This document shows positions 50,988 through 54,513 of a DNA stretch of 64,000 nucleotides, in pieces (position 1 is the first letter of the stretch; every line of letters begins with the position of its first letter). The position numbers and the translations under genes were made by a program. Under the pieces are notes generated by a model. That model had not been told where the DNA came from. It saw nothing but the letters and a program-made list of their open reading frames with translations, and did not search any database. Source of the stretch: Neiella litorisoli (lineage in GTDB: Bacteria; Pseudomonadota; Gammaproteobacteria; Enterobacterales; Neiellaceae); assembly GCF_014773395.1 (NCBI RefSeq), contig NZ_JACXAF010000015.1, positions 1 through 64,000 of the forward strand, read 5' to 3'.

Positions 50988-53072
50988 TTGTCTGCTCATA
51001 CACTTGCCAAGCTGCCACTGACCGATTTAAAAGGTGTCGGCAAAAGCCTTGCGGCGAAACTTGCCAAAATTAGCTTGGTATCGGTTCAAGATCTGCTCTA
51101 TCACCTGCCTTTGCGATACGAGGATCGTACCCGCGTTTTTGCTATTGACGATCTATTACCCAATCAAACCGGCACCATCATCGGTGAAATTCTCTCATGT
51201 GACATAAAATTCGGCCGCCGCCGCATGCTGGTGGTTCGCGTCAGTGATGGCACCGGTAGCTTAACCCTGCGCTTTTTTAGCTTTAGCGTCAGCCAGAAAA
51301 ACGGCTTTATCATCGGCAAGCAAATCCGTTGTTTTGGCGAGGTCAAACGCGGTCCGAATGGGCCAGAAATGGTTCACCCCGAATATAAAATTAGCGATAA
51401 CCTTGACGAGCCGCCGCAGGTTGAAGAAACCCTAACACCGGTTTACCCAACCACCGAAGGCGTGCGCCAAGCGAGTTTGCGCAGCTTAACCGAGCAAGCG
51501 TTGCAAATGCTCAGGCGCCACCCGCTGCCCGAGTTAATGCCCGATGGCTTGTACCACAGCCAAATCCAGCTAAACGATGCTATCGCTCTATTACACCGTC
51601 CAGGCGCAGATGTATCTGCCACTATGCTGGCCGAAGGCGAACACCCAGCGCAGCAGCGCCTGATCATTGAAGAATTGCTTGCCCATAATCTCAGCATGCA
51701 GCAACTCAGGCTGCAACAGCAGCAAGTAGCGGCGCCAGCACTAGCCGCCCAAACACAGCTGCAAAAACAGTTACTGAGCACCTTGCCGTTTGCGCCAACC
51801 AATGCCCAGCAACGCGTGGTTCAGGAGATCCAAGCCGATTTAGCGAAACCTCACGCCATGATGCGGCTAGTACAAGGTGATGTTGGTTCGGGTAAAACAC
51901 TGGTTGCGGTACTCGCAGCGCTATCGGTGATCGGCCACGGTTATCAGGTGGCATTAATGGCGCCAACTGAATTACTCGCCGAACAGCATGCAGCCAATTT
52001 TAATAACTGGCTCGAACCGCTCGGCATTTCTGTGGTGTGGCTGGCGGGCAAAACAAAGGGCAAACAGCGACAACAAGCACTGGACGCCATCGCCAATGGC
52101 AGTGGCCAAATGATTGTTGGCACTCATGCGCTGTTTCAGGATCAGGTCAGTTTCGCCAAACTAGCACTGGTAATCATCGACGAGCAGCATCGGTTTGGCG
52201 TTCATCAGCGATTAACACTGCGAGAAAAAGGCGCGACCGAAGGATTTACGCCGCATCAACTGATCATGACCGCAACGCCGATCCCAAGAACGCTGGCGAT
52301 GACCGCCTATGCCGACTTAGACACATCAGTAATTGATGAGCTGCCACCAGGCCGAACACCGGTGACAACGGTTGCGCTACCCGATACCCGCCGAGAGCAA
52401 GTGTTGGAGCGAGTTCGCTCCGCTTGTATTAACGACAATCGGCAGGTTTATTGGGTTTGCACCCTGATTGAAGAGTCAGAAGTGCTTGAAGCGCAGGCCG
52501 CCGAAGATACCCAAGCGGCGCTCACCGAACATTTACCTGAATTACGCATTGGCTTGGTCCATGGCCGAATGAAAGCAGCGGAAAAGCAGCAGGTGATGGC
52601 GAGTTTTAAGGCCGGAGAGTTGGATTTATTGGTGGCAACAACCGTGATAGAAGTCGGTGTCGATGTGCCCAATGCCAGCTTGATGGTGATTGAAAACCCA
52701 GAGCGCTTGGGCTTAGCCCAATTGCATCAGTTGCGTGGCCGCGTAGGGCGAGGCTCCGTCGCCAGCCATTGTGTATTACTTTATAAAGCGCCACTGTCAA
52801 AAACGGCAACCAAGCGCCTCGGCGTATTGCGCGATTCTAATGATGGCTTTGTGATTGCACAGCGTGACCTTGAGATCCGCGGTCCCGGTGAAATTCTGGG
52901 TACCAAACAAACCGGTCTAGCCGATTTAAAAATTGCCGATTTAGTCCGTGATCAACACTTGTTGCCACTCATTCACCAGCTTGCCAACCAACTTCATCAA
53001 CAACACCCTCAGCTTATTCAGCCGCTCATTGACCGCTGGATGGCTGGGCGCAGTCAATTTGGCTCGGCATAA
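50988..53072 (+). CDS. recG: ATP-dependent DNA helicase RecG
   Basis: Branch-migration helicase for stalled forks and recombination, 694 aa (693 in E. coli). Start TTG at 50988 (GAGA seven bases upstream) aligns with E. coli RecG; no ATG is near. Wedge/OB domain (about 50-150), Walker A GDVGSGKT, DEQHRFGVHQR, MTATPIPRTLAMTAYADLD and QLRGRVGRG. Complete. The rare start and the cassette-rich upstream region may mean its promoter was replaced. Confidence 0.97.
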   Translation: MSAHTLAKLPLTDLKGVGKSLAAKLAKISLVSVQDLLYHLPLRYEDRTRVFAIDDLLPNQTGTIIGEILSCDIKFGRRRMLVVRVSDGTGSLTLRFFSFSVSQKNGFIIGKQIRCFGEVKRGPNGPEMVHPEYKISDNLDEPPQVEETLTPVYPTTEGVRQASLRSLTEQALQMLRRHPLPELMPDGLYHSQIQLNDAIALLHRPGADVSATMLAEGEHPAQQRLIIEELLAHNLSMQQLRLQQQQVAAPALAAQTQLQKQLLSTLPFAPTNAQQRVVQEIQADLAKPHAMMRLVQGDVGSGKTLVAVLAALSVIGHGYQVALMAPTELLAEQHAANFNNWLEPLGISVVWLAGKTKGKQRQQALDAIANGSGQMIVGTHALFQDQVSFAKLALVIIDEQHRFGVHQRLTLREKGATEGFTPHQLIMTATPIPRTLAMTAYADLDTSVIDELPPGRTPVTTVALPDTRREQVLERVRSACINDNRQVYWVCTLIEESEVLEAQAAEDTQAALTEHLPELRIGLVHGRMKAAEKQQVMASFKAGELDLLVATTVIEVGVDVPNASLMVIENPERLGLAQLHQLRGRVGRGSVASHCVLLYKAPLSKTATKRLGVLRDSNDGFVIAQRDLEIRGPGEILGTKQTGLADLKIADLVRDQHLLPLIHQLANQLHQQHPQLIQPLIDRWMAGRSQFGSA

Positions 53073-53101
53073 ATCGCGCCTGACAAACTTTTTGCGGACA
53101 T

Positions 53102-53131
53102 AAAAAAAGCCTCGATTTTATCGAGGCTTTT
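53102..53131. terminator. Bidirectional terminator, recG and small gene A
   Basis: GCCTCGA / TCGAGGC stem with seven A before and four T after; 29 bases after recG and 30 after the minus-strand small gene A. Confidence 0.85.
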
Positions 53132-53160
53132 ACTTTGGTGAGGTCTTGCAATGATGACAA

Positions 53161-53250
53161 TTAGGCATCGTTGCGAAGAGCTTGACTGCGACGACGGCTA
53201 CGGCCAGTGCGACCTACGCTGTAGCTACCTTTTACGCCGAAGATATTCAT
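53161..53250 (-). CDS. 29-aa Arg-rich peptide A (tandem pair)
   Basis: Begins MNIFGVKGSYSV and ends GRSRRRSQALRNDA; residues 13-15 are G-R-T. Strong AGGAG seven bases before the ATG, own terminator. It matches small gene B in 27 of 29 residues, but 12 codons differ silently and only two change an amino acid (G13S, T15S), both conservative. That is the mark of selection on protein. Very basic, no TM or signal. Family not recognised. Possible roles: nucleic-acid or ribosome binding, or a peptide signal; none is shown. Confidence 0.8.
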   Translation of the reverse strand: MNIFGVKGSYSVGRTGRSRRRSQALRNDA

Positions 53251-53567
53251 ATTGTCTCTCCTTTGGTTTGTTTTAAGTGACGACTTAAATATACACCAAA
53301 TTCTAAAAATGAACAGATTTTTTTGAACTTAATCACACTTTTTTTATTTGGTTTGAAAATTAATAAAAACGAGATCTTCATCACTTGTGAAAAAGAAGCC
53401 GAAATACCATTAATTTATTCATTAAAACAATTAGTTAGATGTATTTAAACTCGACGTTCTGGTTCTGCTGAGATTTTTATTCGGGTTAGGTTGGTCAGAT
53501 TTCAGGCAATAAAAAGCCCCGATTCAATCGAGGCTGTTAACGTTGTTTTTGAGTTTGCGCTGGCAGA
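53251..53567 (-). promoter_or_regulatory. Promoter region of small gene A and end of gene B unit
   Basis: Minus-strand promoter candidates for gene A: -10 TATATT (53293-53288), -35 TGTTCA (53315-53310), and the dyad TGTGA-N6-TCAAA (53337-53322). The same dyad TGTGA-N6-TCAAA occurs at almost the same distance upstream of gene B. The rest of the gap is AT-rich without another gene; the gene B terminator is listed separately. Confidence 0.5.
53509..53535 (-). terminator. Terminator of small gene B
   Basis: AGCCCCGAT / ATCGAGGCT stem (one mismatch) followed on the minus strand by TTTTTATT, 33 bases after gene B. It is similar in sequence to the gene A terminator, so the duplicated unit probably included it. 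Confidence 0.8.
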
Positions 53568-53657
53568 TTAAGCATCGTTGCGAAGTGCTTGGCTGCGACG
53601 ACGGCTACGACCAGAACGACTGACACTATAGCTACCTTTAACACCAAATATATTCAT
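53568..53657 (-). CDS. 29-aa Arg-rich peptide B (tandem pair)
   Basis: Paralog of gene A, same length: MNIFGVKGSYSV, then S-R-S at 13-15, then GRSRRRSQALRNDA. AGGAG nine bases before the ATG; separate promoter and terminator. Both copies keep start, ribosome site, stop and amino acids, while third bases have drifted, so both are maintained. See gene A for interpretation. Confidence 0.8.
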   Translation of the reverse strand: MNIFGVKGSYSVSRSGRSRRRSQALRNDA

Positions 53658-53695
53658 CTCTTTTCTCTCCTGTTCTTTAGCTTTCGAATGTAAGT

Positions 53696-53743
53696 ATATT
53701 ACACAAAACCGAGAGATCAAGAATTTATTTGAGATTGATCACA
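53696..53743 (-). promoter_or_regulatory. Promoter region of small gene B
   Basis: Minus strand: dyad TGTGATCAATCTCAAA (53743-53728), -35-like TTCTTG (53723-53718), -10 TAATAT (53701-53696). The dyad has the same TGTGA-N6-TCAAA form as in gene A and resembles a CRP half-consensus site. Confidence 0.5.
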
Positions 53744-53784
53744 TTTATTTCAGCTCTATTCTGTAATTAAATTACACAATAAGA

Positions 53785-54513
53785 CTATTTTGCACTCTCT
53801 TGTCTTTCGGCGTAGGAAGGCGGCGGAAAGATCAATCGGTAGTTTTTATAATGTTGAACTGTGTTTTGGGCGAAGACATTAAGGCCGTTCACTTGCCCGC
53901 CGAAGCGCATTTTGACCTGCTCTGGAAGAATAAATCCTTGCTCTCGGGCGAACGATAACTCCAGATTGAAGTAAGGAAAGGTAACACCCGCTTTGCTTTC
54001 TAGCGGCGCGGTCGACTTGATTATTACCCTATAAATGTGCTGGTGCCTAACGTCAAACCACAGCTCGCCTTCTAAATGGTGCTGCGAATCGACGGTAAAA
54101 CTCTTAAGGGTGGGTTTAAACCGGTAGTGAGCAGTACTTTCCGTTTGCTGCAACAACTGAAGCGTTGCTGGTTGAATCAATCGGGTTAGCCGATTTTCAA
54201 CCAAGCTGCGTCGCTCAGATTGGGCAGGTTCAAAACTCTGCAAAAACTGCCATTGCTCATCGATAGATGGTTTGACTCCATCCACAGAGACAAGACTCCA
54301 GCCGTTGTCGTGATGTTGGCGCGGCTCATAGCGAACCACTCGAATCTGTTCGTCAGACGCCAGTTCACGGTCGAACGCCCAGCGATGTAGCTCCGCCTCG
54401 TCAATCATTAACATACTGTGTTCAATTGCCGCTTGGTTTGCCAAAGCGTTCGCTGAATTCAGCACGAAAGTTAGAATTAACCCAACAACTAGCCAATAAG
54501 TCCTTGTCTGCAC
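53785..54513 (-). CDS. Periplasmic hypothetical protein
   Basis: 242 aa. Signal peptide (YWLVVGLILTFVLNSANALA). The mature part is beta-rich with HYRFKPTLKSF, LEGELWFDVRHQHIYRVIIKS and MRFGGQVNGLNVFAQNTVQHYKNYR, which resembles outer-membrane lipoprotein-carrier-like folds (LolA/LolB-like), though no signature is clear. Monocistronic; its neighbour upstream is co-directional with a 53-base gap. Function unknown. Confidence 0.75.
   Translation of the reverse strand: MQTRTYWLVVGLILTFVLNSANALANQAAIEHSMLMIDEAELHRWAFDRELASDEQIRVVRYEPRQHHDNGWSLVSVDGVKPSIDEQWQFLQSFEPAQSERRSLVENRLTRLIQPATLQLLQQTESTAHYRFKPTLKSFTVDSQHHLEGELWFDVRHQHIYRVIIKSTAPLESKAGVTFPYFNLELSFAREQGFILPEQVKMRFGGQVNGLNVFAQNTVQHYKNYRLIFPPPSYAERQESAK

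Follow-up and report, generated by a model that had tools for sequence, protein, structure and literature searches.

The window, i.e. the whole stretch of 64,000 nucleotides analysed here, contains two small genes on the minus strand, each comprising an ORF of 29 amino acids. They are flanked by recG on the plus strand (50988-53072), whose product shows the RecG domains, and on the other side by a gene for a 242-aa protein on the minus strand (53785-54513), for which no match was obtained in Pfam at E<=0.001. The source genome, that of Neiella litorisoli (4.32 Mb), carries exactly these two copies, designated copy A (the leading copy) and copy B. The features of the locus are as follows:

53762-53776, palindrome: HexR box 1 of copy A, TGTAATTAAATTACA, exact motif match
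53725-53746, minus strand: CRP-like site of copy A, AAATGTGATCAATCTCAAATAA; score not reached by any of 500 shuffles
53693-53720, minus strand: predicted promoter hexamers of copy A (TTGATC, 16, TATACT), consensus match at chance level
53689-53703, no strand assigned: HexR-like box 2 of copy A, TGTAATATACTTACA, 1 mismatch, overlapping the predicted -10
53568-53657, minus strand: copy A, ORF of 29 aa with stop, MNIFGVKGSYSVSRSGRSRRRSQALRNDA
53515-53535, minus strand: predicted terminator hairpin of copy A, with T-run
53319-53340, minus strand: CRP-like site of copy B, AAGTGTGATTAAGTTCAAAAAA; 1 of 500 shuffles scores as high
53161-53250, minus strand: copy B, ORF of 29 aa with stop, MNIFGVKGSYSVGRTGRSRRRSQALRNDA
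53105-53131, minus strand: predicted terminator hairpin of copy B, with T-run

The coordinates and the strand of both genes given by an earlier reading of the letters (the sequence-only reading) were correct, and so was its description of two separate genes, each copy standing alone. A GGAG-type ribosome site was found upstream of each ATG, and two terminator-like hairpins were observed compared to 0.7 expected in shuffles, which confirms the ribosome site and the terminator proposed for each copy. The promoter likewise proposed for each copy was not borne out by the sigma-70 hexamers, which occurred no more often than expected by chance (2 observed, 1.8 expected). With a -10 picked automatically, the predicted transcripts are short (167-192 nt) and end in the terminator, while the predicted leader comprises roughly 30-43 nt. 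A role of the ORFs as leader peptides was rejected, since each copy possesses its own terminator and recG is oriented tail to tail with copy B.

Selection on the peptide and distribution of the family

The peptides of copies A and B are identical in 27 of 29 residues, while 14 of the 87 coding bases differ. A recount reproduced the 12 silent and 2 replacement differences reported before; all silent differences lie in third positions and the replacements at residues 13 and 15. This corresponds to a dS of 1.21, a dN of 0.030 and a dN/dS of 0.025. When 14 substitutions were placed at random, none of 100,000 trials resulted in two or fewer peptide changes without a stop. Each of the six pairwise comparisons among the four Neiella copies gave a dN/dS within 0.025-0.064 at a dS of 0.85-1.76, values that are rough due to the only ~20 synonymous sites and a dS near saturation. 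Across these pairs the view of the sequence-only reading, that the protein is what is conserved, was upheld. Between the Neiella copies and those of a sister genus (see below) the dN/dS amounted to 0.16-0.48, and the tail of the peptide differs. Furthermore, all 39 arginine codons of the small genes are CGT or CGC, compared to 59 of 88 in four neighbour genes, a codon use that resembles that of highly expressed genes. By the dN/dS values, the peptide is under purifying selection within Neiella. Copies A and B are almost certainly real protein genes, for which translation is predicted.

Among 197 genomes, the source genome included, true copies were found in two others, namely Neiella holothuriorum with two tandem copies and a member of a sister genus of the same family (G004) with three. 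In all three genomes the locus lies between recG and a gene like that of the 242-aa neighbour, which adjoins the small genes, and the tandem copies are ~390-410 bp apart. Compared to N. holothuriorum, copy A is identical in 25 of 29 residues to its counterpart and copy B in 27 of 29. Sixteen residues are invariant across the six distinct peptides and form the head MNIFGVKGSYS and the tract RSRRR. The sequence-only reading had named a lack of homologues, or broken homologues, as the outcomes that would count against it; homologues are present in two genomes and their frames are open, with no internal stop in any copy. As a side observation, the locus of the sister genus contains a 168-codon ORF of PPVSPPVVPPV repeats on the minus strand (L017:5959-6465).

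Neiella is placed in the Echinimonadaceae. In a further genome of the family (G005) recG is present and no copy of the small gene was found. In a second genome of the genus (G002) no copy was found either; since this recG and the GNAT/thioesterase neighbour are missing from its assembly as well, the absence is uninformative. In G003 and G006 a recG of this kind was not found. Matches at E<=1 were obtained in 11 of the 197 genomes, of which three are real (the source genome, N. holothuriorum and the sister genus), while those of the other eight (L005-L012) proved to be chance matches after reading of the loci. In a class-wide profile search, 199 of 369 genomes matched at E<=0.5, with a best E of 9.5e-4 outside the family, and the listed spans lie mostly over the middle and the arginine tract. 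Two of these loci (L092, L095) were inspected and the others discarded by E-value and partial coverage, so that a distant relative may be missed. A scan of the genome contigs with a relaxed head pattern gave seven loci, of which only that of N. holothuriorum is real and the other six are starts of unrelated frames; the scan is incomplete for this family, since the sister-genus record is absent although its copies fit the pattern. In the searches made, no convincing relative was found outside Neiella and the sister genus.

In agreement with the sequence-only reading, which did not recognise the family, the peptides showed no family match in Pfam, NCBIfam or PHROGs. No match to them was found in plasmids and phages, the PDB gave only two 9-residue matches at chance level (E 1.5 and 2.6), and none of the 16 Rfam matches at E<=10 reached the gathering score. 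The literature on Neiella, Echinimonas and Echinimonadaceae, as judged by titles and the beginnings of abstracts in a search outside most subscription journals, contained nothing on small proteins. As far as searched, the 29-aa peptides represent a new small-protein family, known so far from Neiella and a single sister genus, both in the Echinimonadaceae.

HexR boxes and CRP-like sites upstream of the small genes

The sequence-only reading had missed the HexR and CRP-like sites in its account of the promoters, and these sites are better promoter evidence than the sigma-70 hexamers. Box 1 of copy A, TGTAATTAAATTACA, corresponds to the predicted HexR motif of Vibrio parahaemolyticus, as given in the available part of PMC11906056. 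For TGTAATNWNATTACA, box 1 is the sole exact match in the genome (reversed control 0), and NNN allowed in the middle of the motif adds one match, TGTAATCGGATTACA. With up to one mismatch, 12 sites were found compared to 3 for the reversed control, while the scan at two mismatches is uninformative (121 sites, 306 in the reversed control). Of 20,000 shuffles of the 150-nt promoter of copy A, 0.19% contained one box at up to one mismatch and none contained two. Among the 10 other sites with up to one mismatch, three precede adhE, pflB (382 bases off) and galT; downstream of the remaining seven, no gene was recognised as a carbon gene. In N. holothuriorum the leading copy shows an exact box 2 and an upstream box with one mismatch, and in the sister genus it shows the exact upstream box only. 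Accordingly, in each of the three loci the leading copy is preceded by one or more exact HexR-type boxes. For the other four copies no box was found at up to two mismatches.

The regulator itself is encoded in the source genome, where the only match to PF01418 at E<=1e-5 is HexR (NF008451, 528 bits at a cut-off of 296). Its gene is divergent from zwf, and the gene beside it is presumably that of pyruvate kinase. Within the hexR-zwf interval the best box has three mismatches. The exact operator motif and the position of hexR beside zwf agree with the known HexR regulon, which in the available parts of PMC11906056, PMC5343134 and PMC3223726 consists of enzymes and transporters, with no mention of a small-protein member. 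A literature search for HexR together with sRNAs or small proteins, outside most subscription journals, gave nothing relevant by title or beginning of the abstract.

CRP-like sites were found upstream of 7 of 7 copies, with 0 or 1 of 500 shuffles scoring as high, and in copy A the site is located between the two HexR boxes. The sites were assigned as CRP-like by their match to the CRP consensus. The distance from site to ATG differs between the genera (77-79 compared to 60-62), which makes the sign of the CRP control uncertain. Based on these sites, copy A is probably a HexR target, and we infer membership of the leading copy in the HexR regulon and a response of all copies to cAMP-CRP. Through the HexR and CRP-like sites, the leading copy would be connected with carbon metabolism and with the VcdRP design described below.

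The combination of both sites was followed across the order as a composite, defined as a HexR box, 6-36 bases and TGTGA. It is present in 55 of 394 genomes, while the reversed control, counted from the matches listed, occurs in 6. It occurs once each in N. litorisoli and in the sister genus, in both cases at the small gene, and once in G005, elsewhere; in N. holothuriorum it is missing by the exact pattern due to the one mismatch in the upstream box. Thirty composite loci were opened, of which two belong to this small-protein family. Among the 28 others, a carbon gene is next in 12, namely pyruvate kinase (2), glycogen-type phosphorylase (2), PEP carboxylase (2), acetate kinase (4) and pflB (2), where one locus each was checked for the first four and the remainder assigned by like sequence. 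At the other 16, no carbon gene was recognised directly downstream. At one locus (L142), an ORF of 40 amino acids with a ribosome site lies on the minus strand ~103 bases past the composite, and the stretch examined contains no long ORF on this strand. This ORF could possibly encode another sugar-controlled small protein.

Comparison with VcdRP of Vibrio

The available part of PMC8672173 describes VcdRP of Vibrio cholerae as a dual RNA under repression by CRP. Its ORF begins at position 104 and encodes VcdP, a protein of 29 amino acids by which citrate synthase is bound and activated. Four cytosines form the end of a conserved stretch at 223-232. The standalone short transcript, the ORF of 28-30 codons, the terminator and the upstream CRP-type site described there for VcdRP (PMC8672173) are shared by the small genes, the CRP-type site being found by consensus in 7 of 7 promoters. 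The present analysis adds a HexR box upstream in both systems.

This box was found at 12 loci (L048-L059) of family f21, taken as Vibrionaceae, which lie between pepD (TIGR01893) and a permease gene. The orthologues of vc2278/vc2279 flanking vcdRP are taken to be permease and pepD. Eight of the 12 loci contain a 28-29-aa ORF M(K/Q)GL.SA.FW, and in seven of these eight the position of a TATATT points to a leader of 106-113 nt; ACCCC follows 116-132 bases past the ATG. Since this layout is close to that of the VcdRP paper, the ORF was taken as VcdP by its position, not by published letters. One further locus (L059) carries a relative of the VcdP-like ORF. At three others (L054, L055, L058), the ACCCC stretch and the VcdR terminator are kept while the ORF was not found, which would fit a loss of the peptide part or its divergence past recognition. 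The HexR box occurs at up to one mismatch in 12 of 12 loci, compared to a null mean of 0-0.025 per locus. TGTGA follows 35-37 bases after the box in eight loci and was not found within 60 bases in the other four. Of 13 composite sites in this family, at least six lie at the vcdRP locus, as judged by pepD positions. Since the box lies between pepD and vcdRP, it could also serve pepD. Control of VcdRP by HexR is thus a prediction from these boxes. HexR is not mentioned in the VcdRP paper (PMC8672173), and a search outside most subscription journals gave no publication joining the two.

Although the length of 29 amino acids and the CRP site suggested that the small genes belong to VcdRP, this assignment was rejected, since the peptides are unrelated, no free CCCC seed is present and the locus is a different one; the promoter comparison was retained. 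No local alignment of copy B to a VcdP-like peptide was obtained at E up to 100, and the VcdP-like peptide was not found in N. litorisoli, N. holothuriorum, G004 or G005, with G068 as positive control. None of the four Neiella transcripts contains CCCC, and in the sister genus CCCC occurs only inside the terminator stem. While VcdRP is located between pepD and the permease gene, the small genes lie beside recG and in tandem, and their leader of roughly 30-43 nt compares to ~104 in VcdRP (PMC8672173, available part). The small genes can also be likened to the SgrS/SgrT system of enterobacteria. SgrT inhibits the transporter PtsG, and sgrST is activated by SgrR. As predicted for the small genes, a small protein tied to sugar handling is under carbon-state control there (PMC8672173, available part), but with SgrR in place of the HexR and CRP-type sites.

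Possible functions of the small protein

The regulatory sites and the invariant residues are compatible with several functions. The short predicted transcripts with terminator and the VcdRP-like promoter layout could point to a dual-function RNA as in VcdRP or SgrS/SgrT, which would also act as a base-pairing sRNA and in which the RNA would be as important as the peptide. The stretch CCTCACCAA at 53135-53143 (minus strand) before the terminator, kept in both orthologues of copy B (also L016), is a possible seed, and the 5' UTR including the ribosome site showed identities of 0.80 and 0.82 between orthologues (null 0.62 and 0.60). Nevertheless, this explanation is quite improbable: besides the lack of a free CCCC, the identity in the 30 nt past the stop (0.63 and 0.67) hardly differs from that of shuffled sequences (0.58 and 0.57), while the ORFs reach 0.81 and 0.89. 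An unlikely function is also the binding of RNA, DNA or the ribosome by the arginine tract, by which growth would be matched to the sugar supply. The invariant RSRRR and the codon use of high-expression type agree with such a micropeptide, but composition is the sole support, the equally invariant head MNIFGVKGSYS is left unexplained, and no match to a ribosomal or nucleic-acid-binding family was found. For the same suggestion in the sequence-only reading, and for that of a peptide precursor, which had the RSRRR tract as their only basis, no evidence was found.

Tandem short ORFs are often found for type I toxins of toxin-antitoxin systems, and the small genes are arranged in this way ~400 bp apart. 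The peptide, however, is judged by reading to be basic and hydrophilic and not of membrane type, the predicted leader is short, and a scan by consensus showed no plus-strand promoter-like site in 53073-53800. Accordingly, a type I toxin appears very unlikely.

It is proposed instead, with about even confidence, that the tandem, standalone genes are induced by sugar and that their peptide acts on an enzyme or transporter of central carbon metabolism in a manner similar to VcdP. HexR is termed phospho-keto-deoxy-gluconate-responsive in the available part of PMC3223726. A flux of KDPG-forming sugars would release HexR, so that copy A is transcribed, while cAMP-CRP would adjust the expression of every copy, as a repressor if its action resembles that at vcdRP. 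Low cAMP would then remove CRP and result in more peptide. Since KDPG would free HexR and low cAMP would remove CRP, provided that it represses, the peptide should rise at high sugar flux. The further copies would add dose and a level of control by CRP only. For this regulatory part of the model the support from the sequence is good. The weaker step is the direct action on the central-carbon protein, with the invariant head MNIFGVKGSYS and the RSRRR tract as contact surface; that the peptide modulates such a protein directly is put forward tentatively. Still more speculative, and rather doubtful, is the idea that HexR and CRP together provide a promoter module that can be reused for small proteins of metabolism, into which VcdP in Vibrio, whose vcdRP promoters would themselves be HexR targets, and an unrelated 29-aa protein in the Echinimonadaceae were independently recruited.

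Few small proteins of central metabolism are known, and the regulatory sites supply a functional lead beyond the reach of a 29-aa sequence alone. This lead comprises a new family, a predicted inducing condition (sugars that yield KDPG, low cAMP) and a small set of candidate targets. The small protein could serve Neiella, a marine bacterium, as a minute regulator of carbon metabolism that has escaped annotation. If both HexR predictions are true, different lineages would have brought unrelated peptides under one common type of sugar-sensing promoter.
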